Assembly: GCA_018902385.1 (NCBI GenBank) | Contig: JABSSW010000020.1 | Span: 379,546 to 443,545, forward strand | DNA length: 64,000 nucleotides | Direction: 5' to 3' | From: Physcia stellaris | Lineage: Eukaryota > Ascomycota > Lecanoromycetes > Caliciales > Physciaceae | The notes under the pieces: model-generated | Seen by the model: only the letters and a program-made list of their open reading frames with translations | Told to the model about the DNA's origin: nothing | Database searches by the model: none | Program-made: the position numbers and the translations under genes | In this document: positions 37,669 to 57,307 of the stretch, one piece after another | Layout of the letters: each line of letters starts with the position of its first letter | How positions within the stretch are numbered: the stretch's first letter is position 1

Positions 37669-37726
37669 CTGCGGCAAGGCGAATGTATTAGCATTGCGCA
37701 TCCCAAGGGGCAGGTGATGCACGTAC
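37669..37726 (-). other. relic cassette intron after the stop of the smaller gene
   Basis: Downstream of the stop codon at 37739 there is one more copy of the cassette intron (GTACGT ... GCGCAATGCTAAT ... CCGCAG, 58 nt). The exon before it would be 64 nt, one more than a multiple of three. The gene may therefore once have continued further and been cut short by a one-base change. Confidence 0.55.
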
Positions 37727-37738
37727 AAATTTGCTACA

Positions 37739-38455
37739 TTAGTGAGTAAAATACCCGTTAACAGCAGCGGGATCAACTTGTCGTTTCCCACTGCAATAAG
37801 GCAAATGCATTAGCGTTGCATTATTCAAGAAACAGACAATGGACGTGACATACAGATCCTCGTCTAGGTTCGCTGAGGCCAAAATCTCATCAATCTCAGC
37901 AGGGGTAGTAACACCAACTTCTAGTCGCTTGACGCTACGACGAGGCAAATGGATTAGCACTGCATAATTCAAAAAGGCAGACAATGGACGTGACATACAG
38001 ATCCTTTGAAGTTTTAAAGAGGTTTGCGAACCGGGGATCTCCAGGAAGAGGCACAAGTTGTCGCTTCACCCTGCAATAAGACATTAGCGTTGCGCATTCC
38101 AAAGAGACATTGGCCGTACGGTAAAGGGATGTTATTTTCGTTCCCAATATTAAGAAGCGAAACTGCTAGTTTATTTATCCTGCAGTAAGACAATGCATTA
38201 GCACTGCGTATTCCAAAAGACACCGAACATACATATCTATTGTTGCTGGGTCGATGTCCGTCGCACGATTCGTAAGAACAGCGGAATCAAGTTCTCGCCT
38301 CGCCCTGTAGTAAGACAGACGCATTAGTGTTGCGTACCTCAAAGGGCAGGTATGTAATGCACATACAGACTGTTGTCAGGACTGGCGACAGGTGCCGCGA
38401 AGACAGCAACTGGAGACGTCGCAAGAAGAGCTACGAGGAGGTTGTTCAAAAGCAT
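37739..38455 (-). CDS. secreted cassette-exon precursor, smaller paralogue
   Basis: Six exons are 38455-38367, 38304-38233, 38179-38120, 38070-37999, 37934-37854 and 37790-37739 (141 residues). All five introns (49-64 nt) are phase 2, with donors mostly GTATGT, branch GCTAAT and CAG/TAG acceptors. Internal exons are 72, 60, 72 and 81 nt, all multiples of three. Exon 1 encodes a signal peptide (MLLNNLLVALLATSP...) ending FAAPVAS. Cassettes then begin with a dibasic site one or two residues after the junction: ARRELDS, VKRQLVPLPG, VKRLEVG and GKRQVDPAAVNGYFTH, which ends the protein. Only the third exon lacks one. Kex2-type processing in the Golgi would release peptides of about 20-25 residues. 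No known peptide family is recognised. The paralogue lies about 1.3 kb upstream on the same strand. Confidence 0.75.
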
Positions 38456-39749
38456 GATGAGAGCGTCGTCAATTGTTTCAGGTGGTCTTCTGAAGAAGGT
38501 GCGAGTGAGAGACTGTTGGTGGCTTGAAGCTGGAGTGGGAATAGATGGGGAAGATGGATACTCTAGTGTGAGAGAGAGGCTGTTGGTGACTTGATGCTGG
38601 AGTGCAAAGAGACGTGGAAGATGGGCACTCTAATACAGGCAATGAGGGTCTATGCGGCAAAACCAGAAGCAAGCCTCAACTCATGCGGTTCCAACATGGC
38701 GTCTTCAATGTCCGATATTGACGTCGTCCAAGTTTCCTTTGTGTAACCTGAGGGTGTCGGACGGTTGGTTGGGCGTGGCTAAATGTAATTCGAACCGGAT
38801 TTCGTCGGATGTTGTGACGATCACGGATGTTCCAGGAAATCTACTCGACATCGTCCTCCGGGGTACAGAATCACATTTGGATCGACTTCTAAAGCTTAGC
38901 CGCAATACTTCGTACACGTTCTCGGCTTGTGACTCACGAGATCGGCATTCGACACACCATCTCGATGAACTTTGACATTTCACACACCATCTCATTGAAC
39001 TCTGGCCGCCTTTGGATCATGACGATGACCAGCTGGCTGATCCGGGCGCCACATGAGCCGATGAAGACGTCTCTATTCGGATGTACGAGGATAGGAAGAT
39101 GAAAAGGAAGCGACTTGATAGGAGACTCGTTGAGCCAGAATCAATGAGGCGATAATCACACAAGCATCCCATGAATCCATCAGGATTAATCTGCAAGATC
39201 GACCAGCCGGCGTCAGCGATCAGGGAGCGTTATCATCGATCACGATCCACGGGATCGGACACCATCCCACGGAGAACCCCAGACGCCATCTGCGATCCTA
39301 TATCCATCGGATGTAGATCTTGATGTCTTGACTGGATCTGGATGTGTTGAGTATCATCTGAAGTTATTGTAAAGGGGGTGCCGCTGACATCAACCTCAGA
39401 CATCGAAGATGTCACCACGAGCACTCGTGCATTGAGGCTTGGTAATGACTGCGCCATTCACCCATTGAGCTCAGGGAAACATCATTCATTGTATTACCAG
39501 TCTTAGATACTCGACGCAACAGACCACTCATCCAACATCATCGCCATCAGATTCCGAAAAGAACGTGAAAACACTGTACGCTCAAATCAAAGTCACAGGA
39601 TCCGCCATCGACCTTTCTCCGAGGCTTTACTTGCTGCTTAGCGCCTGCATCCTGCACTTTGCATCTAGCTTAGACCTAGAGACCATAGAACATTGCACCA
39701 GAACATCATTAAGACACACCATCCGAATCGTCTTCCCCCAAGCCATCAT

Positions 39750-41303
39750 TTATTTCCTGTAGTAAGGCAAATAGTTAGCGTTGCGCATCCCAAGGGGCAG
39801 GTGATGAAATTACTCGTCTTCCTTTAGCTCGATGTCCAGAGCAAGATCAACAGGAATAGCGGGAACATCTTGTCGCTTCAATCTGTGGTAAGACAAATGC
39901 ATCAGCATTACATCGCCCAAGAGTCAGACTGTGAACATACACATTGTTTAACTTGCCGATAAGTCCTTGGAGAGGGGGACCCAGATCTAACAAAGGCTTG
40001 CCTGAATCTCGCTTGATTCTGTAATGCAGACAAACGCATTAGCGTTGCGCATATCAAGGGGCAGATACGGAGTAATGAACGTGACCTACAACATCCCCGA
40101 CCTGCTCGTAGCGAGGGACTCATTAAGATTAGCTAGAGCGTTTCTGTAGTATGGCAAATGCATTAATAGCGGTGCGCATTTCAAGGGATAAACAATTAAC
40201 GTGACATACAATAGATCGTTCCTGTAGTAAAGCAAATGCATTATTAGCGTTGCGCATTTCAAGAGATAAACAATGAATGTGACATACATCAACGACGAAA
40301 GTGCACCGTTCCTGCAACAAGGCAAATACATTAGCGTTGCGCATGTCAACGGGCAGATAATGAACGTGACATACAACACATCCACATCGGACTCGCTCGA
40401 ACGAGGTACCTTGGATCCTCTGGAACATGACAAATGCATTAGCGTTGCGCAATCCAAGGGGTAGATCATGTGAACGTGACATACAAATTGGGTAACGATG
40501 CAATAGTATCGACGAAATCAGCAATATTAGAGAGATCGCTCCTGTAGTAAGGCAAATGCATTATTAGCGTTGCGTATTCCAAGGGGCACATAATGAACGT
40601 GACATACGACACATCCGCCTCGCTCGAACGAGCTACAATGGGTTCTCTATAACATGACAAATGCATTAGCGTTGCGCATCTCAAGGGGTTGATCATGAAC
40701 GTGACATACATTTTGTTTGGGAGCCGAATAGGACCGGCGGAGTCAGCAGTATTTAATAGATCATTCGTGTAGAAAGGAAAATTCATTATTAGCGTTGCGT
40801 ATTCCAGGGGTTGGACAATGAACGTGACATACATCACCTTTGACCCATCCGAATCCAATAGTTTTGAATGAAAGACGTCAATTTGTCGCTTGGCCCTGCA
40901 ACATGACAAATGCATTAGCGTTGCGCAATTCCCAAGAGGTAGATCATGAACGTGACATACAAGACGTTCGACGAAAAGGGTTTTGTCAAGGAGTCAGCAG
41001 TAACAGCGACACCTTCCCTGTAGTAAGGCAAATGCATTATTAGCGTTGCGCATTTCAAGGGGTAGACAATGAACGTGACATACAACGCCGTCGAAAGTGC
41101 ACGAAGAGTCTCAGTAGAAATCATATTACTACTTCTGCAAAAAGGCAAATGCATTAGCGTTGCGCATCCCAAGAGGTAATCATTTATTGAACATACAGAT
41201 CATCTCCAGAACTATCACGTTTTTCTGGTGAGGCGACAGGTGCCGCGAACACAGCGACTGGAGATGTCGCAAGAAGAGCTACGAGAAAAGTGTTCAGAAG
41301 CAT
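39750..41303 (-). CDS. secreted cassette-exon (micro-exon-like) precursor, larger paralogue
   Basis: The model has 14 exons: 41303-41197, 41134-41084, 41017-40961, 40895-40833, 40766-40710, 40646-40608, 40541-40485, 40419-40375, 40311-40288, 40221-40210, 40143-40090, 40018-39941, 39882-39814 and 39756-39750 (239 residues). If the last intron is retained, it ends at 39810 with 238. Every intron is phase 2. Internal exons are 51, 57, 63, 57, 39, 57, 45, 24, 12, 54, 78 and 69 nt, so any can be skipped without frame loss. Exon 1 encodes a signal peptide and EKRDSSGDD. Dibasic sites recur as LAKRQIDVF (exon 4), IKRDSGKPL (exon 12) and LKRQDVPAIP (exon 13). Exons 3, 5 and 7 resemble one another (57 nt each); exons 6 and 8 share RSSE-x-DV. 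The acceptor before exon 5 reads CTACAC instead of CTACAG, so exon 5 may be skipped. Function is unknown; the product is presumably a secreted protein or peptide precursor with splice variants. Confidence 0.75.
39757..41196 (-). repeat. array of thirteen near-identical phase-2 introns
   Basis: The introns of the larger gene are copies of one sequence, 57-71 nt long. The start is GTATGTCACGTTCATT, the middle CCCCTTG then GCGCAACGCTAAT, and the end TGCATTTGCCTTACTACAG. Two subtypes alternate: one with CTAATAATGCATTTGCCTTACTACAG-type ends (66 nt; introns 2, 4, 6, 9, 10) and one with TGCATTTGTCATGTTGCAG-type ends (63-65 nt; introns 3, 5, 7). Exons between them are much more divergent. Intron coordinates are 41135-41196, 41018-41083, 40896-40960, 40767-40832, 40647-40709, 40542-40607, 40420-40484, 40312-40374, 40222-40287, 40144-40209, 40019-40089, 39883-39940 and 39757-39813. 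No other intron in the window resembles them except those of the neighbouring paralogue. Confidence 0.88.
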
Positions 41304-41453
41304 GGTGGAGAGCGTCGTCGACTATTCGAAGGAATAATTGAAGTGCGGTGTAGATGAGAGGCTTCTTGGTGAATTGCTGCTGGAATGGGAAAAGAAGGAC
41401 CTTTCTGTGCACGAGGAGAACTCTGATATCCCATGGACTGGTCTGGGAGTCGC

Positions 41454-41466
41454 TTATATATATAAC
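41454..41466 (-). promoter_or_regulatory. TATA-like element of the larger cassette-exon gene
   Basis: GTTATATATATAA on the minus strand lies about 150 bp upstream of the start codon at 41303, a plausible core-promoter position. This is inference from position and sequence only. Confidence 0.4.
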
Positions 41467-42033
41467 GGAGGCTACCCCCTGAATGTACGCCACGCCAGTG
41501 CATGGGATATGCCATGGGTGCCGGTGTGACACTCTCGTCATCGAGCCTCAAGTCGGGTCACTCCGTGATGATAATTTCGGAGGTTCGATGCTGACGTCGT
41601 CAATGTGTCTTTGGCGGATATTGAGAGGTTCGAAGGATTGATGACTTTAGATTTTCTGTGGCTGGCTGTACGAGCTGTACGAGGTTAGTCTACACTCGGA
41701 TTTCGTCGGACGTTGTGACGATCACGCGACTCCAAGCAAAACTACTCCACAACAATCCTCCGAGTCTAGAACCACAACTCAATCGAATCTTAAAGCTTGG
41801 TCAATCCAACAGATTTTTTGCTTCGAATCCACTGAATCGGCATTGGACACACCATCTCAAGGAACTTAGTTTTTATCTAGCGGCCTCAGAGTCAATATCA
41901 TGACGAGATGGAGGATGGAGGTGTCGCATACGTCGATGAAGAAATCTCGATTAGTATGGTTAAGATATGGGAGTTGTTCATCATGCGACTCCATTGAGAA
42001 TTTCGAGAAGCCGATGACGATGTGGAAAAAGTC

Positions 42034-42440
42034 ACACAAGCATCACATGACCTTCCAGAATGAATGCCACACTGGATCGGAAATCCTCCCATTGAGATCT
42101 CAAGACGCCATCGTTGGTGTGTTTAGCCACACAAGCATCACATGAACCCATCAGAATGGATTCTGTAAAAACAATCGACTCTTCACGTAGCTTTACCGTC
42201 GATCACGCCACAATGGATCGGACAACCTCCCATTGAGATCTCAAGACGCCATCGTTGGTGTGGTTCAAGGCACAAGCATCGCATGAACCCATCAGAAAAT
42301 TACCTTGATCGATCAACCCTTAACGCAGCTTTACTACTAATCACGCCCCACTAGACTCGACATCCTCCTACCAGAGCTTCAAGACGCCATCGTCGGTATG
42401 GCGAAAGCCTCACATGCAACACATGAGCCGATCAAATTAT
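42034..42440. repeat. diverged tandem repeats upstream of the cassette genes
   Basis: Three to four imperfect copies of a block of roughly 100-140 bp follow each other. Anchors are CACAAGCATCACATGA (about 42034, 42130, 42271, and a degraded copy near 42405) and GAGATCTCAAGACGCCATCG (about 42096, 42235, 42378). A related block lies in unit A near 39160-39300. No coding is evident. Confidence 0.7.
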
Positions 42441-42869
42441 GACCTGCAGCATCGATCGCCTCTGCAAGAACCCACTGGACCGCACACCATCTCTTTCCGG
42501 ATCCCCAGACGCCAATTAGAGTGCAGTGTCCATCGGATGGAGATCTCGATGTCTTGACCATCATCTGAGATTACTGTAAAGAGGGTCCCCCTTACATCGA
42601 TATCGGACACTGAACGCTACGAATCCAATGAAAATCTCAGTGTCTTGACGATCATCTGAGACGATTCTAAACGGGGTGCGGCTGATATCGATATCAGACA
42701 TTGAAGCCGTCGCCACGAGGACCCGTACATTGAGGATTGGTACTAATTGCGCCTCGACAACCTGAAAGGAGCCATCAAATCGTCGGCCTTGAAAACTCAG
42801 TACCGAGATTGTACCTGTGACCTTTAGCAGCGTTCAGTGGTCGTATGTTGAGCGTTCCCGACAGCCGTA

Positions 42870-43015: not shown

Positions 43016-44626
43016 TTCATAGAGTTAATCGGACCTTCTTTCAATGGCATCAAGTAACTTGTGGGGTTTCGAAAGCTTGCAAGTCGTGCTATCAATGGTC
43101 GAGTCGTGGATCACGAGTGGTGCAGCGCTGACTCTGGATGGCGAAGTGATTGATTGGTCGAAGCAGGGCTCCTGACTCGAAGCGTATTAGCTCCGAACAA
43201 CCTGTTTAGCGCCTCAATAGGAGATCTACGGATACGAGTTCCAGATACGGAAGCTCGTATAACAGCCTATATATATAAATCTCCAAGTAGGCCCATTAGT
43301 TCAATCAAGTTTTTGGCACCTTTCATGTTCCTGTAGGTGGCTCTCGGAGAAGCCAAGGAGTAATCTCACAACAAATGTAAAAGAGTGTCGCAAAGGGAAC
43401 TACGGGCACGAGAGATGCGGCAGGGAAGAGGGGGTCCCGTCCCATTTATGTTTAATGGAGTGAAGCTGCTGTGAAGAGAAGACTGGCAATTTATCCCCTG
43501 TATCTCCCTGAAGATGGTCACCATTTTTTTTAGCGCAAAACCCAACAAGAGGTGCTATACCTAGTAAATAATAAGCAAGAAGCTGAGAAGAGACCTTGAT
43601 CATCGAGCTGTCCATTCCCTACCATCAACTACGGTAAAAAGTAAATAGACCCGAAAGCTAGCGGGTTTTTGGGAGTCGGGCTTTATGGGGAGAACTGGAT
43701 GAGGGTTGAAGATCCGTGGTGTGAGTTAGAAGAATTGACAGAACGCGGGCTCTTTTACAGTATGTACAACACAATAACTCTCACTTACCAGAAGTTGAGG
43801 CTTTTCAGTTGAGGCTGGGCGAGTTGTCGCATAGGAGCTAAGGCCTTTGAACTTTCGCTTTCCGAATGTGATATCAAGCTAGGAACATAAGAACTGAGAA
43901 GAAGCCAGACAGGAGTAAATTGAGCCGTCTTGAGATGTTAAGAGTGGGAGGGCAAGGGATATTGTGAATGTTGTGAAGAAAAGTGAAGGGGATGGAGGCA
44001 GAAAAAGCGATGAGAAGCTCGAGTATGATGTTTGGTGTTATTGGAGAAGGGGATGGGATTCGCTTTGAATTGTTCTGACGGAGAAGAAGTAGCAGGACGA
44101 GTGAGGGTTTTTTTGAGAGTGAATGCGGGGAAGATAATAAGGGAGTCTACATAGACACCACTAGGGAGGGAGCCTCTCTATAGACTGTAGTATACACTGA
44201 ATATATATTCGCATTCATCCTTACCCCGAATACGGCATCAATTCAACGGTGCATCTGTTGAAATGTTATGGCACTTAGGATGTAATTGCTATGGAGGTGA
44301 TTGGAAAATTTATCCTAGTGCCAAGACGTGTGCCAAGACGCTAGAGGACTCAAGCGAAGTCCTCGAAAGACCTGCAGCTTCGAATCGCACTTATGCGCTA
44401 CTCTTTGCCCATTTCTTCGTCGTTGATGCAACCCAAGTCTGTGATCATGCTGTCATCATCAGCTGCATGTGGGGTATTGCTTTGGAGATCTGAGGTGTCA
44501 GATTCTGTGGAAGCGATCAGAGCTTCTGTGGCGACGTAGGAGCTGCGGCGTGCGACTGCCTCAGATGGCGCCCGGGATTTGCCGCATCTGCAGCCGCCCT
44601 GCGCATCAGTCCCTGCAATACAACCG
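43016..44626. other. intergenic between the two mobile elements
   Basis: No gene is firmly supported. A minus-strand frame from 43615 starts MDSSMIKVSSQLLAYYLLGIA, which looks like a secretion signal, but the rest has no cysteine pattern or family and no splice model I trust. Confidence 0.4.
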
Positions 44627-44634
44627 TAGGATTA
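44627..44634. other. target site duplication, left copy
   Basis: TAGGATTA directly precedes the left terminal repeat of the Mutator-like element and is repeated exactly at 47870-47877. Confidence 0.9.
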
Positions 44635-44768
44635 GGCTGCCAGTACGCGCACCCCCCATTCCGGTATGCGCACCCCCAGTCCGATACGCGCATCCTCCAT
44701 TCCGGTACACGCATTCTCTCTGTTCTAACCCTACGGCTATATCAACTTTTTCGTATTTGATGTTGAGT
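44635..44768. repeat. left terminal inverted repeat with 21-bp subrepeats
   Basis: It pairs with 47736-47869. Inside are about three subrepeats of about 21 bp (ACGCGCACCCCCCATTCCGGT, with variants containing CAGTCCG), which may be transposase-binding sites. Compared with the right copy it shows many C-to-T and some G-to-A differences, for example CATTCTCTCTGTTCTAACCC against CACCCCCCCTGCCCTAACCC. Confidence 0.88.
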
Positions 44769-45142
44769 TATTCGTGAAGTTTGCGATCGAAACATCTCGA
44801 TTTCGGTCGCATTTTTCGAATCACAGAAGAAGTGAAATATTTGCGATAAATATGCAAAAGAAATTTTCGAAAATTTGATGTAAAACAAATCAATTGAATG
44901 AAATGTTTTCAACTTTTTCGATTTAATTATTTTACATTTTCAATTTTTTTTTTTTCGATGCATCGCAAATCGATTCGTTCAAAAACGAAAATTTCGAATC
45001 AATGTATGTCGTTTTACAAGATTGATTGTTTTTATTCAATTGACATGTTCAAATTTTCGTTCAAATTCGATGTCTCGATCGACGTGATTTTGAAAAAGAA
45101 CACGCTAATTGAATTCGACGATGCTTTTTTTTTGCGTATTTC

Positions 45143-47638
45143 TTATTTTTCATCGCGTATTTCTCGTTTTCGTGTTTCGTCGCGATCACGTTGACGAGTT
45201 TCTGTATACACGTCTTGATGTTGAGTTTTCTTTTTTTCGAATGCGTGTAATTCTTGATTTTTTTCGCGTTGATTTTTTTTTCGTTCGTTGTTTTCTCGTT
45301 TTTTGCTTTTTCGTTTTCTGTTTCGTTGTTTTCGTTGACTTTGTCGTTCTTGTTCTAATTCATTTCGTTGCGTGACATCGTTTTGTTGATGACGTGTAAT
45401 TTGAAAACGTTTTTTCACATGTTCGAATCGCGAAAAGTTTCGTCGAGTAAATTTGATCGTTTTTTTCTGAATTTTTGTCATGAGTGATTTTTTTTTTTTA
45501 GTTTCTCGAAATCGTTTTTTTGTTTTCATTTTTTCAAAATCATTGACATCAAGAAGATCATCATCAATTAATTCGTTCTCGACGAAATCGTGTTTCTCAA
45601 TTGAAAATTCGATGTGATTGTCATTTTTCATGTTTTGAACAATAAATTCGACTTCAAAAGAAGTTTCAGATAACGCGTCGATTGAAAACTCGATGTGATT
45701 GTCATTTTTCATGTCTTGAACAATCAGTTCGACTTCGAAAGAAATTTCAAATATTGCGTTTTCGAGTCGCTCAATAATATTATCAAAGTTTTCTTGAATG
45801 ATGCGTTTGAATTTATTTTGTTCGTATTTTATTCACGAATTTTCGTCGTTTTTTGAAATGCGAAATTCATCATCTTTTTTTTCGATCATTTCGACAAGAA
45901 CGTGATTATCATCAAAAAGCTCGTTGATTTCGAACTGACGATGAGTTTCAATTTTTTCGATAAAAGATTTTTTGAAACGTCAATGAAAATGTACATTATC
46001 AATATGCAGTTGATCAACATCGTCGTTATATTTTGTCGTCGTCTTGATTTTGTGAACACAAAATAAATTCATGATTTTTCTGTATATTTTGATGCAAAAT
46101 TTTAACGATTGATGAGATGTTGCGATTTTGTAAAATTTTCATTGTTTATGCATCATTCACATAGCGTGAAATGTAATTCGATTTATTAAGAATTGAAAAA
46201 TTTTCGCTTTGAATGCATTAAATCGTTTCATTTTTTTTCTCTCAATATTGATGCGATAAATTTTCAATTGATTCATGATCATTATTTCAATGTCGTCGAC
46301 AACGATCATTAAGTCGTTCGTTGAGAATTTGATCATCGATTTCAATATTCGATGCATGATTTTCACACGAAAAATGATAATTGTATCGAAATGAAAAATT
46401 CGATTGATTCAAACTTTGCAAATCTTATTGCGAAAAAAAACGATTCAATTGTTTCGAACGTAATCGTAGCAATGTTCGTAAAAATTCGAAGAATCACGAT
46501 AATACGCATTTTCGAAATCATGCAAAATCGTTCGATATGCAAATTTATCGTGAACATACATCAAACGCTCGTAAATCGCATAGAAAATATTAAAATTTTT
46601 TTCGTTTTCGTCGAATTCGAATTTGCATCAAGCGCGAACGTTTCTGTTGACGTGAAATAAACAAAACAATGTTGTGATTTCAAAATATTCGATTTTTAAA
46701 ACGTTGATCAATGTTTCGTCACGATCAGTGACAACGACGATCGAATCTGAAAGATCGAGTGTTTTGTACAATTTCTTCAACTGTTGTAACATTCAACGAT
46801 ATATTTTCTCTTTTTTCGTTCAAATGAAAGCGAAATCGATGTAAAAAATAATATTTATGAAGATATGATCGACGATGTTTAACAAAAACATATCATATCG
46901 ATTGATTTTGTAAATACAATTCATTATAAGCATTTCGAAATTTTTGCATAAAATATTCATCATTTTTTTGTTCACAAAAAACAATATTTTCACACGTTTG
47001 AAGTTCGCGACGAATTGTACTTTCACGTATCATTTTTTTCGATAGAGAGCACGTAATATGATTTGAGTTAAATTGTATTTATTCAGTCTATTTCGCTTGA
47101 TGATTTTTTTGACATTTCAAATATTTTGATTTTGAAAAAAACAATTGAAATTTTTCTGACGAAAAATGATAAAAATTTGTGCAAATGTATTTATTTTTTG
47201 TTAACATCGTTTGCAAATAAACGAAAATATTGAACATTGATTGTTTCTCGAAAGGCGATCAATTTTATCAAGCATATTTTTCGTCAACTTTTCATTACGA
47301 TATTGAAATTGAGTCGAAATTTCTATATTCTCGTGATTATGATTTTCACGAACGACTGTAAGCGTTCAAATCTCGATAATTATGTAATAAATGACGTTGA
47401 ATTTGAAAAAACAATCGCATTTTTTCGTGAACGTTTTTTTCGTCGTGATATCGTTTTGTTTGAAAAAATCGCTTCGATTGCAATCAATGACTATCTTTTT
47501 AAAAGTTTTGATTTTTGAATTCGTTCTAAATCGTTTTTTAACAATTGCATAGTCGTGACGCTTTGCGTGAACATGAACAACTTGTTCAAAATTTTCAATT
47601 GACGCGTAATCGTTTTCGGCAAATGATAGTAAATTCAT
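45143..47638 (-). pseudogene. RIP-degraded MULE transposase
   Basis: From the ATG at 47638 the minus strand reads MNLLSFAENDYASIENFEQ and then HAKRHDYAIVKKRFRTN and CDCFFKF, the FAR1-like DNA-binding start of fungal MULE transposases (open to 47366). Around 46820-47026 the MULE domain is recognisable: MLIMNCIYKINRYDMFLLNIV followed by FYIDFAFI. Families have Asp where this reads N (MN-C-x-YK), and Thr, Pro and Gly positions have become Ile, Phe and Asp. This is exactly what C-to-T on either strand produces. Around 46157-46366 LMIVVDDIEIMIMNQLK matches a conserved helix after the catalytic domain. The end, 45143-45712, is Lys/Arg/Glu-rich. Several stops separate these pieces. It is inactive. 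Confidence 0.82.
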
Positions 47639-47735
47639 GATGTTGTGAGATTGAAAAGATGTGAATTGCAAAAAGTAAACGTGACAAGTAAATTGGCGGA
47701 GAAGCGGCCGGAACAACTATAATCCGGACATCAAA

Positions 47736-47869
47736 TTCAACACCAGGTACGAAAAAGTTGGTATAGCCGTAGGGTTAGGGCAGGGGGGGTGCGTGTACCG
47801 GAATGGAGGGTGCGCGTACCGGACTGGGAGGTGCGCATACCGGAATGGGGGGTGCGCGTACTGGCAGCC
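47736..47869. repeat. right terminal inverted repeat, little mutated
   Basis: This is the inverted partner of 44635-44768. It keeps C/G at nearly all positions where the left copy has T/A, so it is close to the ancestral sequence. It ends at 47869, followed by TAGGATTA. Confidence 0.88.
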
Positions 47870-47877
47870 TAGGATTA
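47870..47877. other. target site duplication, right copy
   Basis: This is the exact copy of TAGGATTA at 44627-44634. Confidence 0.9.
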
Positions 47878-48168
47878 TCCTGCAGCTATGGATGTCTTGG
47901 TCCTGCAGCCACCATGAAGTGCTTACATGATGTTAGACACTTCATCCCCCGCAGTCCTCCTGGTCAAAATCACTCTAGGTTCGGACTCTTATTATCATAC
48001 TAGCTAAGTGGAAGTTCTGCGATTTCTCTGTCTTTTAGCTGCCCACGATCAGTCAAATCAATTGGAGATATTCTTCTCGAGCTCGCTTTTCACGAGTATC
48101 GCTTGCACCGTTGTTGTTTTTCCAACGACCTTATCAACCAAAAGTGCAGCGCTTTCTGATTTAGCTCA

Positions 48169-50823
48169 ATGGAACACTTACCCTACCCTAAAGATGTTGC
48201 GTCAGCAGGGCCTGGGCCTGTGCCATTCGTCTGCAAAGAAGCCTATGATGGAGGTCCGTTCCTGACGTATCCGCTGCGTAGGAAGGAACCAAACCCACTG
48301 GCCAACGGGACTGAAATGGTGGATACGGTTTCTAATCAGGTATCTTCGCAGCCCGTTGCAAGACTGGAGGCCTTCATACAGACATGGCTCTTCTTTGGAC
48401 TTTTGCAGGAAATATTTGGTGATCTATTCGACGCGTCACAGTTTGTGCGGCCCGCCGCCTCGACAAATGAAACTCGAAATGTATCGAAAACTAGTCAATT
48501 GGTGTCAGTCCTGAAATCATGGATGGCCTTCGGTCCTCGGAAGGTATTGGACACTAGTCAGCTAGTGTCAATCGTTGAGAAGTGGATGAACCGGGTTGAA
48601 TTGTCGAGGGACTCCCAGGACGAAAAGCGATCGCAGTACGAGCATGTAGCTTCTTGTCTTCGTCTGACAGTAACCGTTCTGCAAACCGTCAAAGCCAACG
48701 TGCGGCCAGATTTCAACCCTTGGATACGACTATCCATCGCCACCATCGGTGAATTGCTAACCCAGGCTGCGAATTGGGCATATGAAATCGATTTCGGAAA
48801 GGATAATAAATGTCCTGGGAATTGGAACCTTGTGTCTGAGCAGCCTCAAATGTTTGATCAGATGAAAAGAAATGGTCTCTGTCCCTCCGAGATCCATCGA
48901 CTCCGCAGCTCGCATCTGACATTACAGACGTTGAACTTCTTGAGTTGGATGAGGAAAGAGGCGCCAGGCATGGGACACCAAAACTGTACTGAACGGATCT
49001 GCCGGGCCAGCCATAACAACCTTGGGCAGTACGTCGCAAAGCATCAACATCAAGATTGTCAATGCACCAACTTTCTGGTAGATGTACCAGAGACGATCCG
49101 TATTCTGTCACGAGGTCTACTGCCATTGCTGAGAATAAAGCCAGGATCGACCACTGAGGACATTCGGGTCGACGTTGTTGAGGCATCGTCAAATCTCAAA
49201 TATATCGCCCTATCTCACGTTGTAAGGGCACTGATTTCTTGACTTCTTGACACCGATACTAACACTATTGAATAGTGGGCCGATGGACTCGGGAATCCGT
49301 ACTCCAATTCTTTACCCAAATGCCAGCTGCAGCTTTTGTATGAACTTTCACGCCCTTTCGCTGATATGGAAAATGAAGATGATATGCTCTTCTGGATTGA
49401 TACTCTGTGCTGCCCCGTCGAACCTCCGGAGGCCAAAGCTATGTCGCTCAGTCTAATGAAAGTTCCCTATACTAGCGCTTCGCACGTTTTGGTTCTCGAA
49501 AACTCCCTTCGAGATCTGAAAACCTCGAACCTTGATCCTACAGAAATCTGCATGCGAATCTTCACTTCAGGATGGATGCGCAGATTATGGACGCTACAAG
49601 AAGGCGCTCTGCCCGGCAAACTCTGGTTTCAGTTCAAAGACTCAGTGAGAGAGCTGCGGCAGACGTGGCTAAAAGCCATGGAGATATATAATACCGAGAT
49701 TGGTCGTAGATGGCTTGCTCATGATATCACGATACTTTACCAAGATTTGCGAAACTTTTTCCACTCGGAAGGAGAGTGGGCTTTTGACCGCAGTTTAGAA
49801 TCTGTGGATAGTGCATTGCAATTCCGCTCTGTCAGCGTCGCTTCTGACGAACCTTTACTAATTGCAGGTCTATTGAAGCTTGACACGGCTTTCATCCTTG
49901 ATGGATCCGAAGACTCAAGGATGCAACGTCTGTGGTCATTGATACCTTCCGTTCCCAAAGGAATCCCTAAAAATGTCCTTTTCAATCGCGGCTCAAGGCT
50001 TCCCCAGTCCGGCTTTCGGTGGGCGCCGGCATCCCTGCTATCTTTTACAGGTGACCGAGATGGAAGTTTACGCAGTACAGATATCGATGAGTACTCAGGG
50101 ACTTTGACACCGGCTGGTCTTCAGATTCATCTTGCTGCATTTCCATTGAAAATGGCTGCAGCACCCAAGGGCTTGCCCAAGAATCCTTGGAACATGTTCA
50201 ACAATGTGACAGATAACACCATTTTCTGTAGATACGGGGACGGAGTATGGCTTCAGATCTGGGAAAAGTATAGTGACCAAAGCGTGGACTCTAACCAAGA
50301 TCGCCCGTCTCTGCTTGGAATCCTAAGAAAAGCATCTCGGTCGTACACATTGCTGTTAGCATCCCCTTTCCACTTCGATGGGAGTCATGAGACGTCTGAG
50401 GCCCTGCTGGTACATGACGGTGATGATCAAGATCAAGACAGTGTTCGGAAGGTAATCTCGGATATAATTGTCGGTATAGGAATCACACCAGGGAATTCGA
50501 AGATATTCCTCGAAGCTGCCTTTCAAACTTCGCGAATGCTTCTTAACGATGAGATCACAAGTCAATATATTGATCTCGGCATCGAAGACGAAAAGGTTCA
50601 GAAAGAGCACCCTGGGTATATGAACCTGGAACCAATCCTCTCACAAAAGCTGTTTGATCTAGCCGCAGGCATCAAGGACCCCCAAATCCTGGCCGCGATA
50701 CAGACGCAGAATAGCAAAGGTAGCAATACGTTCTTCCCAGTGTTCACAGCTCGTGCCTACTTGGGGTTGCATTGCGACCTGGCGCCAATGCTACCTAAGA
50801 CCAGAGAATGGTGTGTCGATTGA
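48169..50823 (+). CDS. HET-domain (heterokaryon incompatibility) protein
   Basis: Two exons, 48169-49221 and 49276-50823, are joined across a 54-nt phase-0 intron (GTAAGG ... TTGAATAG) to give 866 residues. The intron splits the HET hallmark: exon 1 ends LKYIALSHV and exon 2 begins WADGLGNPYSNSLPKCQL, together the classical ALSHVW-x-DGLGN motif (residues about 346-358). FWIDTLCCPVEPPEAKAMSL and SGWMRRLWTLQEGAL, later HET blocks, follow. The first 330 residues contain a Cys/His-containing segment (CTERICRASHNN and HQHQDCQC). The C-terminal 400 residues show no known domain. HET proteins trigger programmed cell death on fusion with genetically different hyphae. The gene starts about 300 bp from the end of the Mutator-like element, so that element may supply or disturb its promoter. 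Confidence 0.92.
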
Positions 50824-54166: not shown

Positions 54167-57100
54167 ATGGCAGATCTGAGCGGCCTTGTTGTAACCGTTC
54201 TCGGTCTGTCATTCGAGATCGCTTCTACTCTCTACAGCTACTCCAAAGACGTCAAAGGAGCTTCCAAGCAAATCCAACAATTGAGTAACGAGCTCTTCGC
54301 ATTGATTGGCGTCATTGAACACATCAAGCTACAACGCGAGCGCGGAACCCTGGACCAGCAGCCGAGATCGTTCTTCGATAATGACTCGGATACCCTTGAA
54401 AGAGTGTTGAACGAGACGATCGAGTTCCTGCAAGAGCTGCAGGACTCGTTGGCTGTACCGAAGAGCCGCTTCCATGCGATTGCGCAGAAATTGAAGTGGC
54501 CGCTGCAAGAGAAAGAGACCAAAGCCCATCTTCTGCGACTGGAGAGAGTTAAGAGCTATTTTGTGCTGTCGCAGGTCACTGAAGAAATGTTGGTGTGACG
54601 CTTTTCATAGAGTCCTGATTCCATCTCTGCTTGGGTTCGGCCCTCCTAGGCGCGGGTGATAGAGTTACGTTTCATGGATCAATCGCTTACTGTAGCCAGC
54701 GATCTCACTCGCCAGATCGCATCTCAGATCTCGGAACTCAGCTCTCTCGTGCAGCAAACTCAGCTTGACCGGGAAGCAATAAGGAATCGTAGGTCAAATA
54801 CTCTTTTCCCCGAACGTTTCGAAGTGAGAGCGATAACCGGGTCACTAATTGTATGTACAGAGGATAGGTATGCCCAAGTTCTAGAATGGCTTTCGCCCGT
54901 CAACCCAACAGAAACCCGCGACAAAGTCTCAAAGTCTCGCATTCTTGGAAGTGGTACATGGTTTACTGCTGGCGAAATTTTTCAGAAATGGAGTTGCTCC
55001 GAAGCGTCATCGACATTCTGGTTGAATGGAATAAGTACGGCGGATTTTAATCTGTTGCTTACTCGGGTCCTGGGCTGATGTTGCATATAGCTGGTGCTGG
55101 AAAAACGTTTCTGATGTACGCCATTCAGTATACGCGGAATGGAATCGCCAATAATGCTGATAACGCGTAGGACCGCTGCTATCGAGGAACTAAGTCGCAA
55201 AGATACAGGCATCACTCTAGCCTACTTCTATTGCTCCTTCGCCAACGCCGAGAGCCTGAGAGCGGAAAATATCCTAGGATCCATCTTAACGCAGCTCTGT
55301 GCCAATGATACGGCCATCCTCGAGACACTTACAGGGCTCTTTACAAAAAACCAGGGAGCCAGCACTGGTGCAGCCAAACCCCGACATCTTGAGGAGGCAG
55401 TGACAGTGGATTTCATCATTCAAAGCTTGAACAAACGTAAGTCCGTTTTCGTCTTGCTCGATGGCATCAACGAATGCGAAGATTCTCACGCTATCTTGCA
55501 ATGGCTCTCGGAGATTGTGGCCTCCTCCTCAGACTGTTGTGTTCGTCTCTTCATCTCAAGCATAAACGAAAAAGATATTGAGTCGGCTGTGGAGCTACTT
55601 CCAAATGTGATAATGGAGACCCTAAGACAAGTCGACATCCGAAATGACGTCCGCAGCCTTGTGCTGGCTAGCCTTGACTCCGATCCTCGTCTTCGGCGTC
55701 ATAGCCCCGAACTCAAAGGAGAAATCGAGAGGGCGCTGACAAAAGGCGCAAAGGGAATGTAAGATACTATCAATCCCCTTCTTCTCATCATCGGCTTATC
55801 TTGGCAAAGGTTCCGATGGGTGCAATGTCAACTAGATATCCTTTCAAAGCTCCGAACTCCTGGCGCTGTCAGAAAAGCTCTTGAGAATCTACCACCGACC
55901 CTGGATAAAACATACGAGGGTCTACTAGACCGCATCGACAGTGATGAAGACAGATCCTTGGCTCGTGAAATTCTGGAAATCTTATGCTTCTCTTATAGAC
56001 CATTCACACTTCATGAAGTTCGCGAGATGCTTCAGATAACACCTGGCTATCGCCAACTCGACGAAAGTAAATGGCTTGCGGATCCCAAGGACATACTGAG
56101 CATCTGTGGCAGTCTCCTGAATTTTCAGCAGCACACTGGGCTCGTATCACTGGCACACCATTCAGTCAAGACCTATCTTACATCAGATCTGCAGGGGAAA
56201 GCCAAGTTCTTTCGCTTGACAGAGGAGGAAGCCGACCGAGCCATTGCAACAAAGTGTTTAACGTATCTCTCTTTCGATGCATTCTCTGGTGGGCCTTGCC
56301 GCCCACAATCCGCCTTAAGGGAATTGTATCGCAAATACCCATTATTAGGCTACGCGGCACAGCGGTGGACGTTTCATGCTCGATACGTCAAAGAGCTTGG
56401 TGACACTCTATGGAACGCAATGAAAGACTTGCTTCTCAGCCAAGATGCAGGTCGAGGTAACTTCTCGGCATGGGTTCAGATGCTACTTCCATCGGCTAGC
56501 GTCGAGACCATTGGTAGAACTCCGCCATTGTACTATGCCGCTTCGTACGGCCTGACAACTGTTGTTCGATATCTGATCGAGGCAGGCGTAGATCTCGAGG
56601 TTCATGCCGGTCGCTGTGGTGCCACGCCGCTCAATATCGCCGCCTTCAGAGGACACTACTCTGTAGTGAAGCTACTGTTGGAGCATGGAGCAAACCCCGA
56701 AGCTACCGACGAGATTCCCGGCTGGTCGGGTCTACAGTGGGCACGATACAATGGACATCTTGATGTCTGCAATCTTCTCGTGGAATCGATCTCGACACAA
56801 CCACAGTCATTTGACCGCCAAGCGGCGCTCTCCGACTTGCGATCTCGATTGGAACGGCCAGCAGAACTTGGAGTGCTAGTCGCGAAAGCGGAATTAGAAC
56901 CCAATTGGCCTAGTCGCTTGTGGTGGACCCTAGTTGGTCTCGCAGAGTCAGGTTCTCCTCATCCATTTGCCTTAGCCATCTATAAAGCAGCGAAGAGTCA
57001 TCTACAGATCATCGGTGACCGAAACATCGATGGATCCGTTACCCACTTCGAGAACATCGACGGAAAAGGTGTTCGGGCACAAATTGAGATTGACTTTCCT

Positions 57101-57307
57101 AACGCACAACCTCACTACTCCGTCATCATTGGAAGCCTAGCGTTTCTCAGCGTCCAGGGCCTCGAACCTCCTGAAAGCCTTGTCGTGGACTCGACATTCC
57201 GACCTGAGGAAGACCTCAAAAAGCCAGCATTCAGGAACTATGCGCATGTCGGTGTTGCTATTGACGGCGCCTTTGCTGGAATGCTTTTCTTGGACAATCC
57301 TGTGTAA
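54167..57307 (+). CDS. NACHT-ankyrin STAND receptor (fungal NLR-like) with unknown C-terminal domain
   Basis: Six exons (54167-54592, 54650-54788, 54861-55034, 55091-55127, 55171-55758, 55810-57307) give 953 residues. Exon 4 is only 37 nt and carries Walker A. The fungal N-terminal domain (MADLSGLVVTVLGLSFEIAS) is followed by WLSPVNPTETRDK and FWLNGITGAGKTFLM (P-loop, about residues 244-251), FVLLDGINECED (Walker B, about 352-363), a winged-helix-like ILEILCFSYRPFTLHEVREM and the SLAHHSVKTYL motif. Three ankyrin repeats span about 692-783. The last 160 residues (VTHFENIDGKGVRAQIEIDF, SVIIGSLAFLSVQGLEPPES) match nothing I know. NACHT-STAND proteins act as ATP-driven switches in non-self recognition and cell death. 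Exon 2-3 could be read through: that 72-nt intron is in frame and open, but the spliced form fits the family better. The 43-nt fourth intron is short. Confidence 0.88.

Follow-up and report, generated by a model that had tools for sequence, protein, structure and literature searches.

Tandem intron-plus-exon cassettes in a small family of predicted secreted-peptide precursor genes from the lichen-forming fungus Physcia stellaris

Introduction

How might a fungal gene gain peptides unlike those it already encodes, without harm to its reading frame? Fungal multi-peptide precursors are so far known from protein repeats. A sequence-only reading of DNA from the lichen-forming Lecanoromycete Physcia stellaris raised the question for a different arrangement: two neighbouring genes in which short exons come after a signal-like exon 1, many of these short exons being said to open with a Kex2-type site, one cassette to each peptide, in the manner of the schistosome micro-exon genes. 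Here, we analyse this locus in a window of 64,000 nucleotides (positions 379,546 to 443,545 of JABSSW010000020.1, here contig C20; 730,981 bases) from the 44-Mb genome (GCA_018902385.1), and ask how the genes are built, how they grew and what they may produce.

Results

Anatomy of the two genes

Both genes lie at the coordinates given in the sequence-only reading, on the minus strand, each with a signal-like first exon and then short exons. Gene A (41303-39810) has 13 exons and its neighbour gene B (38455-37739) has six; position 41303 is the A of the gene A ATG, and 37739 is the final base of the gene B stop. The signal exon reads MLLNTFLVALLATSPVAVFAAPVASP in gene A and MLLNNLLVALLATSPVAVFAAPVASP in gene B. 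The symmetry that had been claimed for the exons is complete: all 15 internal exons (A2-A12, B2-B5; 12-81 nt) are divisible by three, and every junction in both genes is phase 2. The introns are 49-71 nt long, with a GTATGT donor in 15 of 19 and a CTAAT-like branch site in most, and only 9 of the 19 have lengths divisible by three, versus 15 of 15 internal exons. This count of introns includes the two 3′-most intron-like stretches, A13 and B6, which overlap or follow the stops. Because the conserved intron pins down the splice sites, the exon-length test is a fair one. In a generic intron scan, the locus chains eight introns separated by exons divisible by three; with the locus masked, the longest chain of this type is two on the minus strand and one on the plus strand, and 50 Markov windows give at most two. 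At the DNA level the gene structure is real, and well beyond chance.

In gene A, exon 1 (41197..41303; identical in the deposited model P0004) encodes the signal-like peptide, ending VFA/AP, and the first KR site (PEKR/D). Intron 1 (41135..41196, 62 nt) leads to exons 2-4 with introns 2-3 (40833..41134; exons of 51, 57 and 63 nt), of which exon 4 begins LAKRQ. Intron 4 (40767..40832, 66 nt) is stop-free in phase, lacks a 3′ AG in this assembly and is retained in the deposited model; either its retention or the skipping of exon 5 (40710..40766, 57 nt) keeps the frame. Beyond intron 5 (40647..40709, 63 nt), exons 6-11 with introns 6-11 (40019..40646; exons of 39, 57, 45, 24, 12 and 54 nt) are free of KR/RR and hold the two-cassette and 78-bp duplication units described below. 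A KR site opens each of exons 12 and 13 (IKR/D, LKR/Q; 39810..40018 with intron 12), and the gene ends at a TAA (39812-39810), as does P0004. Our initial model had a 14th exon, which we dropped, as the frame hits this TAA, where the deposited model stops too. An intron-like stretch (39757..39813) overlaps and follows the stop, with 85% identity over 52 bp to another that lies 3′ of the gene B stop (37669..37726). These stretches, and that of the third copy described below, look like relics.

Gene B is simpler. Its signal-like exon 1 (38367..38455; present in the deposited model P0001) and intron 1 (38305..38366, 62 nt) precede exon 2 (38233..38304, 72 nt; LARR/ELD..., present in P0001 and in the related fragment P0003), intron 2 (38180..38232, 53 nt) and exon 3 (38120..38179, 60 nt), which has no KR/RR and is readable in P0003. 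Intron 3 (38071..38119, 49 nt) has the donor GTACGG. Exon 4 (37999..38070, 72 nt; PVKR/QLV...), intron 4 (37935..37998, 64 nt), exon 5 (37854..37934, 81 nt; LVKR/LEV..., readable in the fragment P0002) and intron 5 (37791..37853, 63 nt) follow, and exon 6 (37739..37790) reads LGKR/QVDPAAVNGYFTH and then stops.

Deposited models and relatives

A search among 5.8 billion proteins returned the deposited model of each gene, together with three fragments from ENA contigs of 2464 and 2242 bases. P0004, the model for gene A, has all 13 exons and differs from ours only by keeping intron 4; P0001, for gene B, has five of six exons and skips exon 3 in frame, in an ab initio prediction only. Since the P. 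stellaris gene models come from ab initio Augustus with Aspergillus nidulans training (PMC7513301), these structures are not RNA evidence. The deposited annotation names both genes alcohol dehydrogenase [acceptor], neither has a Pfam domain, and a GMC oxidoreductase lies near them at 33.4-35.3 kb.

The fragments P0002, P0003 and P0005 are close relatives of parts of the locus, and the exons are kept in all three. Together they differ from the window at 7 of 150 residues in exons, 4 of 146 in introns and 1 of 14 at junctions, part of exon B4 being read out of frame, so that exons are not clearly faster-changing than introns when the latter are translated. All three of the cassette-start sites that can be read in frame are still dibasic, one RR now being KR. 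A homologue with one uninterrupted frame, which the sequence-only reading had named as telling against it, is not among these relatives: they read through some introns, but P0003 shifts frame within intron B2, as one would expect if that segment is spliced out, a sequencing slip being another possible cause. At the lost acceptor of exon A5, P0005 has Arg where the window has Thr, which is compatible with an intact acceptor in that relative.

Kex2-type sites and predicted products

Eight KR/RR sites are found in A and B, four per gene, and their products contain neither KK nor RK. Seven of the eight lie exactly four bases past an acceptor (A4, A12, A13, B2, B4, B5, B6), and the eighth is in gene A exon 1. 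The probability of seven of eight sites at one offset is 1.3e-5 if positions are independent, which duplicated cassettes are not. The idea that many cassettes start with KR or RR thus gains a fixed offset in seven exons and loses some breadth, as only 7 of 17 downstream exons start this way and ten are without a site. Likewise, one peptide per cassette suits gene B (4 of 5) but does not hold in most of gene A, where 3 of 12 downstream exons have a site.

The products are acidic (gene A counted without exon 5). Cysteine is absent from the deposited A model and from B, and the mature parts hold no tyrosine in A (exon 5 excluded) and one in B. By eye, the sequence has a hydrophobic N-terminus ending VFA/AP. 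Neither deposited model matched a Pfam family, and the gene A model matched no PDB chain. The proprotein-convertase P-domain has one partial match in the genome. Going by these motifs, A and B likely encode secreted, kexin-cut peptides from duplicated intron-plus-exon cassettes; the description of both as secreted-type precursors with Kex2-type sites at cassette starts agrees with this prediction.

Introns are alike, most exons are not

Mean pairwise identity among the 19 introns is 73% versus 55% when shuffled, and among the 17 exons 47% versus 45% (with exon B6 extended past its stop to the relic intron). The conserved intron parts include the donor, branch and AG signals. Gene A matches itself over 675 columns at 72% when shifted by two cassettes, and a 78-bp intron-plus-exon unit occurs twice at 40134-40288 with 88% matches. 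Similarity extends to particular exons, namely A6/A8 (z 8.2) and A5/A7 (z 6.4). Growth by tandem duplication of intron-plus-exon cassettes is well supported.

Pooled, these two exon pairs have pS 0.30 and pN 0.34, over only 23.5 synonymous sites, so that cassette divergence looks near-neutral. The signal exons of A and B (26 codons) have pS 0.34 and pN 0.08. At the two-cassette shift (A1-A3 to A6-A8), identity is 85-92% in six intron pairs; the introns have thus changed less than the silent sites of A6/A8 and A5/A7, which suggests that homogenisation or constraint acts on them. RNAalifold predicted no base pairs in the introns, and Rfam at gathering scores had no match in 36-43 kb. Within gene A, Mantel tests showed no correlation between intron similarity and exon similarity (r -0.02, P 0.46; r 0.14, P 0.23). 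We read this as weak power, the exons being 12-78 nt long, yet it counts against a simple cassette tree.

A third, reduced copy

A third copy lies on contig C18 (L040, about 8028-7797, minus strand). Its signal exon, MLLNSLLVVLLAAAPIAVFAAPLASP, is followed by one cassette, LKRQQYLDELL..., that ends at a stop, and then by a relic cassette reading AKR-stop, that is, with a stop in cassette two. All three copies resemble one another in their upstream pieces, in the signal exon and first intron, and in the relic last intron; the number of downstream exons is 12 in A, 5 in B and 1 in the third copy, bearing out the proposal that cassette number varies, here between paralogues. The protein of the third copy found no candidate among the 5.8 billion proteins.

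The stretch upstream of gene A (41304..42719, minus strand) contains pieces that are found again 5′ of gene B (38456-39332) and 5′ of the third copy (L040 8029-8892). Related, partly tandem stretches lie 5′ of all three (42066-42719, 39157-39332, L040:8653-8892), and may be promoter repeats that were copied together with the genes. Near both loci there are also AT-rich blocks (GC 0.25-0.38; 44000-48000 and L040:1-7000), perhaps the remains of mutated transposons.

Neighbourhood

A Pfam scan covered 20 of the 95 stop-to-stop frames; nine had no family and one had a match below the cut-off only. The rest were GMC oxidoreductase, bare HET, sideroflexin, NPHP3_N plus ankyrin, peroxidase family 2 and SRP19. 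Among the frames scanned, the GMC oxidoreductase (33.4-35.3 kb) and the peroxidase frames (57.5-59.0 kb) are conceivable partners of A and B. The bare HET match (49276-50823) scores 23.1 bits against a cut-off of 22.5, and it and the NPHP3_N plus ankyrin frame (55115-57307) are of a kind that we take to occur in fungal allorecognition genes.

Past the window end, at C20:444.0-445.8 kb (L044:997-1233 minus and L044:2320-2818 plus), there is an intronless short frame of secreted type in which DPPVLNA occurs twice around GFAFHPSALKAR as a near-repeat; UstYa exons lie about 1 kb away. The stretch is likely a separate ustiloxin-type RiPP locus; the P. stellaris genome paper lists one fungal-RiPP (PMC7513301).

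Discussion

We consider it fairly probable that A, B and the third copy form a small family of secreted precursors, grown by tandem cassette duplication and subject to Kex2-type processing. The cassette would be one phase-2 intron of about 60 nt plus one short exon. Alike introns would have kept the copies splice-compatible and offered a substrate for recombination, so that cassettes could be added or lost without damage to the frame; the symmetry and the repeated intron-plus-exon units are there in the DNA, and the recombination step is inferred from them. To judge by its N-terminus, the spliced product would enter the secretory pathway, where kexin would cut after the KR/RR that 7 of 17 cassettes encode four bases from their start, and release linear, acidic, cysteine-free peptides. 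Gene B would give four of these, of 13-44 residues. Gene A would give four pieces of about 20, 26, 46 and 100-140 residues, the last depending on how exon 5 is handled. Our conjecture is that such peptides probably have extracellular roles, either as signals or in dealings with the lichen partners. The effector, pheromone-like and defence roles named in the sequence-only reading would be no more than candidates.

It is also possible, if unlikely, that we are looking at decaying relics, a former secreted-peptide family now drifting, its cassettes neutral debris. The near-neutral divergence of the cassettes, the acceptor lost at A5, the stop in cassette two of the third copy and the nearby AT-rich blocks would all fit. 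Against this, A and B keep long open spliced frames, the signal exon is constrained (pN 0.08 versus pS 0.34), and the three readable cassette-start dibasic sites are retained in the relatives' fragments. Partial decay of the family is possible, since the lost A5 acceptor and the third copy's stop point to decay under way. That the introns are alike while most exons are not could instead reflect an invasive, introner-like intron inserted repeatedly into one precursor gene. This is disfavoured, and in our view very unlikely: every insertion would need to fall in phase 2, and homology extends through the exons too. No copy was seen in an unrelated gene, in searches insensitive to diverged copies. 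A one-intron query matched six places, all in gene A, and left 13 of the locus's 19 intron-like stretches undetected; a 20-base core missed 11 of the 19 and had 34 matches, comprising 8 in the locus, 1 in the third copy, 21-22 accompanied by another 20-mer and 3 isolated ones without splice-site context. The accompanying 20-mer, GCGCAAAAATAATGCATTTG, marks a different repeat family found at those 21-22 of the 34 places (C2, C4, C5, C6, C16 and others); 18 compared copies form one family with 77-95% mutual identity.

Two further readings concern the nature of the product. Were the introns coding, the locus would encode a single uninterrupted repeat protein. Nine of the 19 introns do have lengths divisible by three, the 66-nt ones are stop-free in phase and the deposited A model retains one, but the other ten are not multiples of three, several have in-phase stops, and the exons all are symmetric. 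As donor (GTATGT in 15 of 19), branch and AG are among the conserved parts, and the frame change between relatives sits inside an intron, this read-through frame is disfavoured too, and we hold it extremely unlikely. A signal-like peptide with Kex2-type sites, and UstYa matches on the same contig, would also suit precursors of ustiloxin-type (dikaritin) RiPPs modified by UstYa. That reading has only the slimmest chance of being right. UstYa (DUF3328) genes are reported at an average of 3.09 genes from the precursor (PMC7329392), whereas the window holds no UstYa match, and the nearest on the contig, among the matches listed, is outside the window about 24 kb from gene A (C20:445320-445818). 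Moreover, the UstYa matches adjoin their own precursor-like frame, the mature parts have no tyrosine in A (without exon 5) and one in B, and the cores are not repeated.

Returning to the secreted precursor family grown by cassette duplication, we suggest, tentatively and as the less probable of its forms, that it is a fungal counterpart of the micro-exon genes. The peptide set would then differ from paralogue to paralogue, and perhaps from transcript to transcript, through gain, loss or skipping of symmetric cassettes, with the introns held alike by conversion or selection as splice-safe recombination sites; the lost acceptor in A would be tolerated because skipping and retention are both in frame. 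In the precursor family that we favour, what is repeated is an intron together with its exon, and this would account for the gain of unlike peptides without damage to the frame. Such a class would be missed by surveys of protein repeats, because its peptides are unlike and gene callers skip or fuse its exons. Secreted peptides of this type, in a lichen fungus, are candidates for talk between the partners.

In the open-licence literature, judged by titles and abstract openings, we recognised no described fungal equivalent. Schistosome micro-exon genes share with A and B a conserved signal peptide followed by short exons mostly divisible by three, but their introns are described as 100 to almost 5000 bp long (PMC10526429). 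The likeness that had been drawn is thus structural and stops at the introns, which in A and B are short (49-71 nt) and alike. A and B also have Kex2-type sites, and no sequence kinship with micro-exon genes was found. Alternative splicing, a mark of the micro-exon genes, would be a candidate feature only in A and B.

The bicycle genes of aphids carry cysteine-tyrosine-cysteine motifs; the deposited A model and B both lack cysteine. Like A and B, they are described as having many small internal exons, almost all phase 2, and fast-changing products (PMC9168663); A and B differ in being fungal and in their KR/RR sites, and no sequence kinship was found. The introner-like elements of fungi, as described, are short, alike introns too (PMC4457414), but in A and B such introns occur in one gene family only and in one phase, duplicated together with the exons, and within the limited sensitivity of our searches no copies were seen in unrelated genes.

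Finally, A and B can be compared with the KEX2-processed repeat proteins (KEPs) of fungi, which as described likewise have a signal-like N-terminus, several KR/RR sites and a predicted release of multiple peptides (PMC6339444, PMC7329392, PMC9769878). KEPs were defined by a signal peptide, several Kex2 sites and, between these sites, at least three tandem repeats that are each 8 or more residues long, with a repeat score over 0.6 (PMC7329392). A and B have four Kex2 sites each, but their best self-shift identity, a simplified stand-in for the published score, reaches 0.16 for the deposited A model and 0.18 for B. Neither "exon" nor "splic" appears in the main text of PMC6339444 or PMC7329392. 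A and B would thus resemble fungal KEPs in predicted action and not in repeats: their peptides are not repeats of each other, and the unit that has been duplicated is an intron plus an exon.
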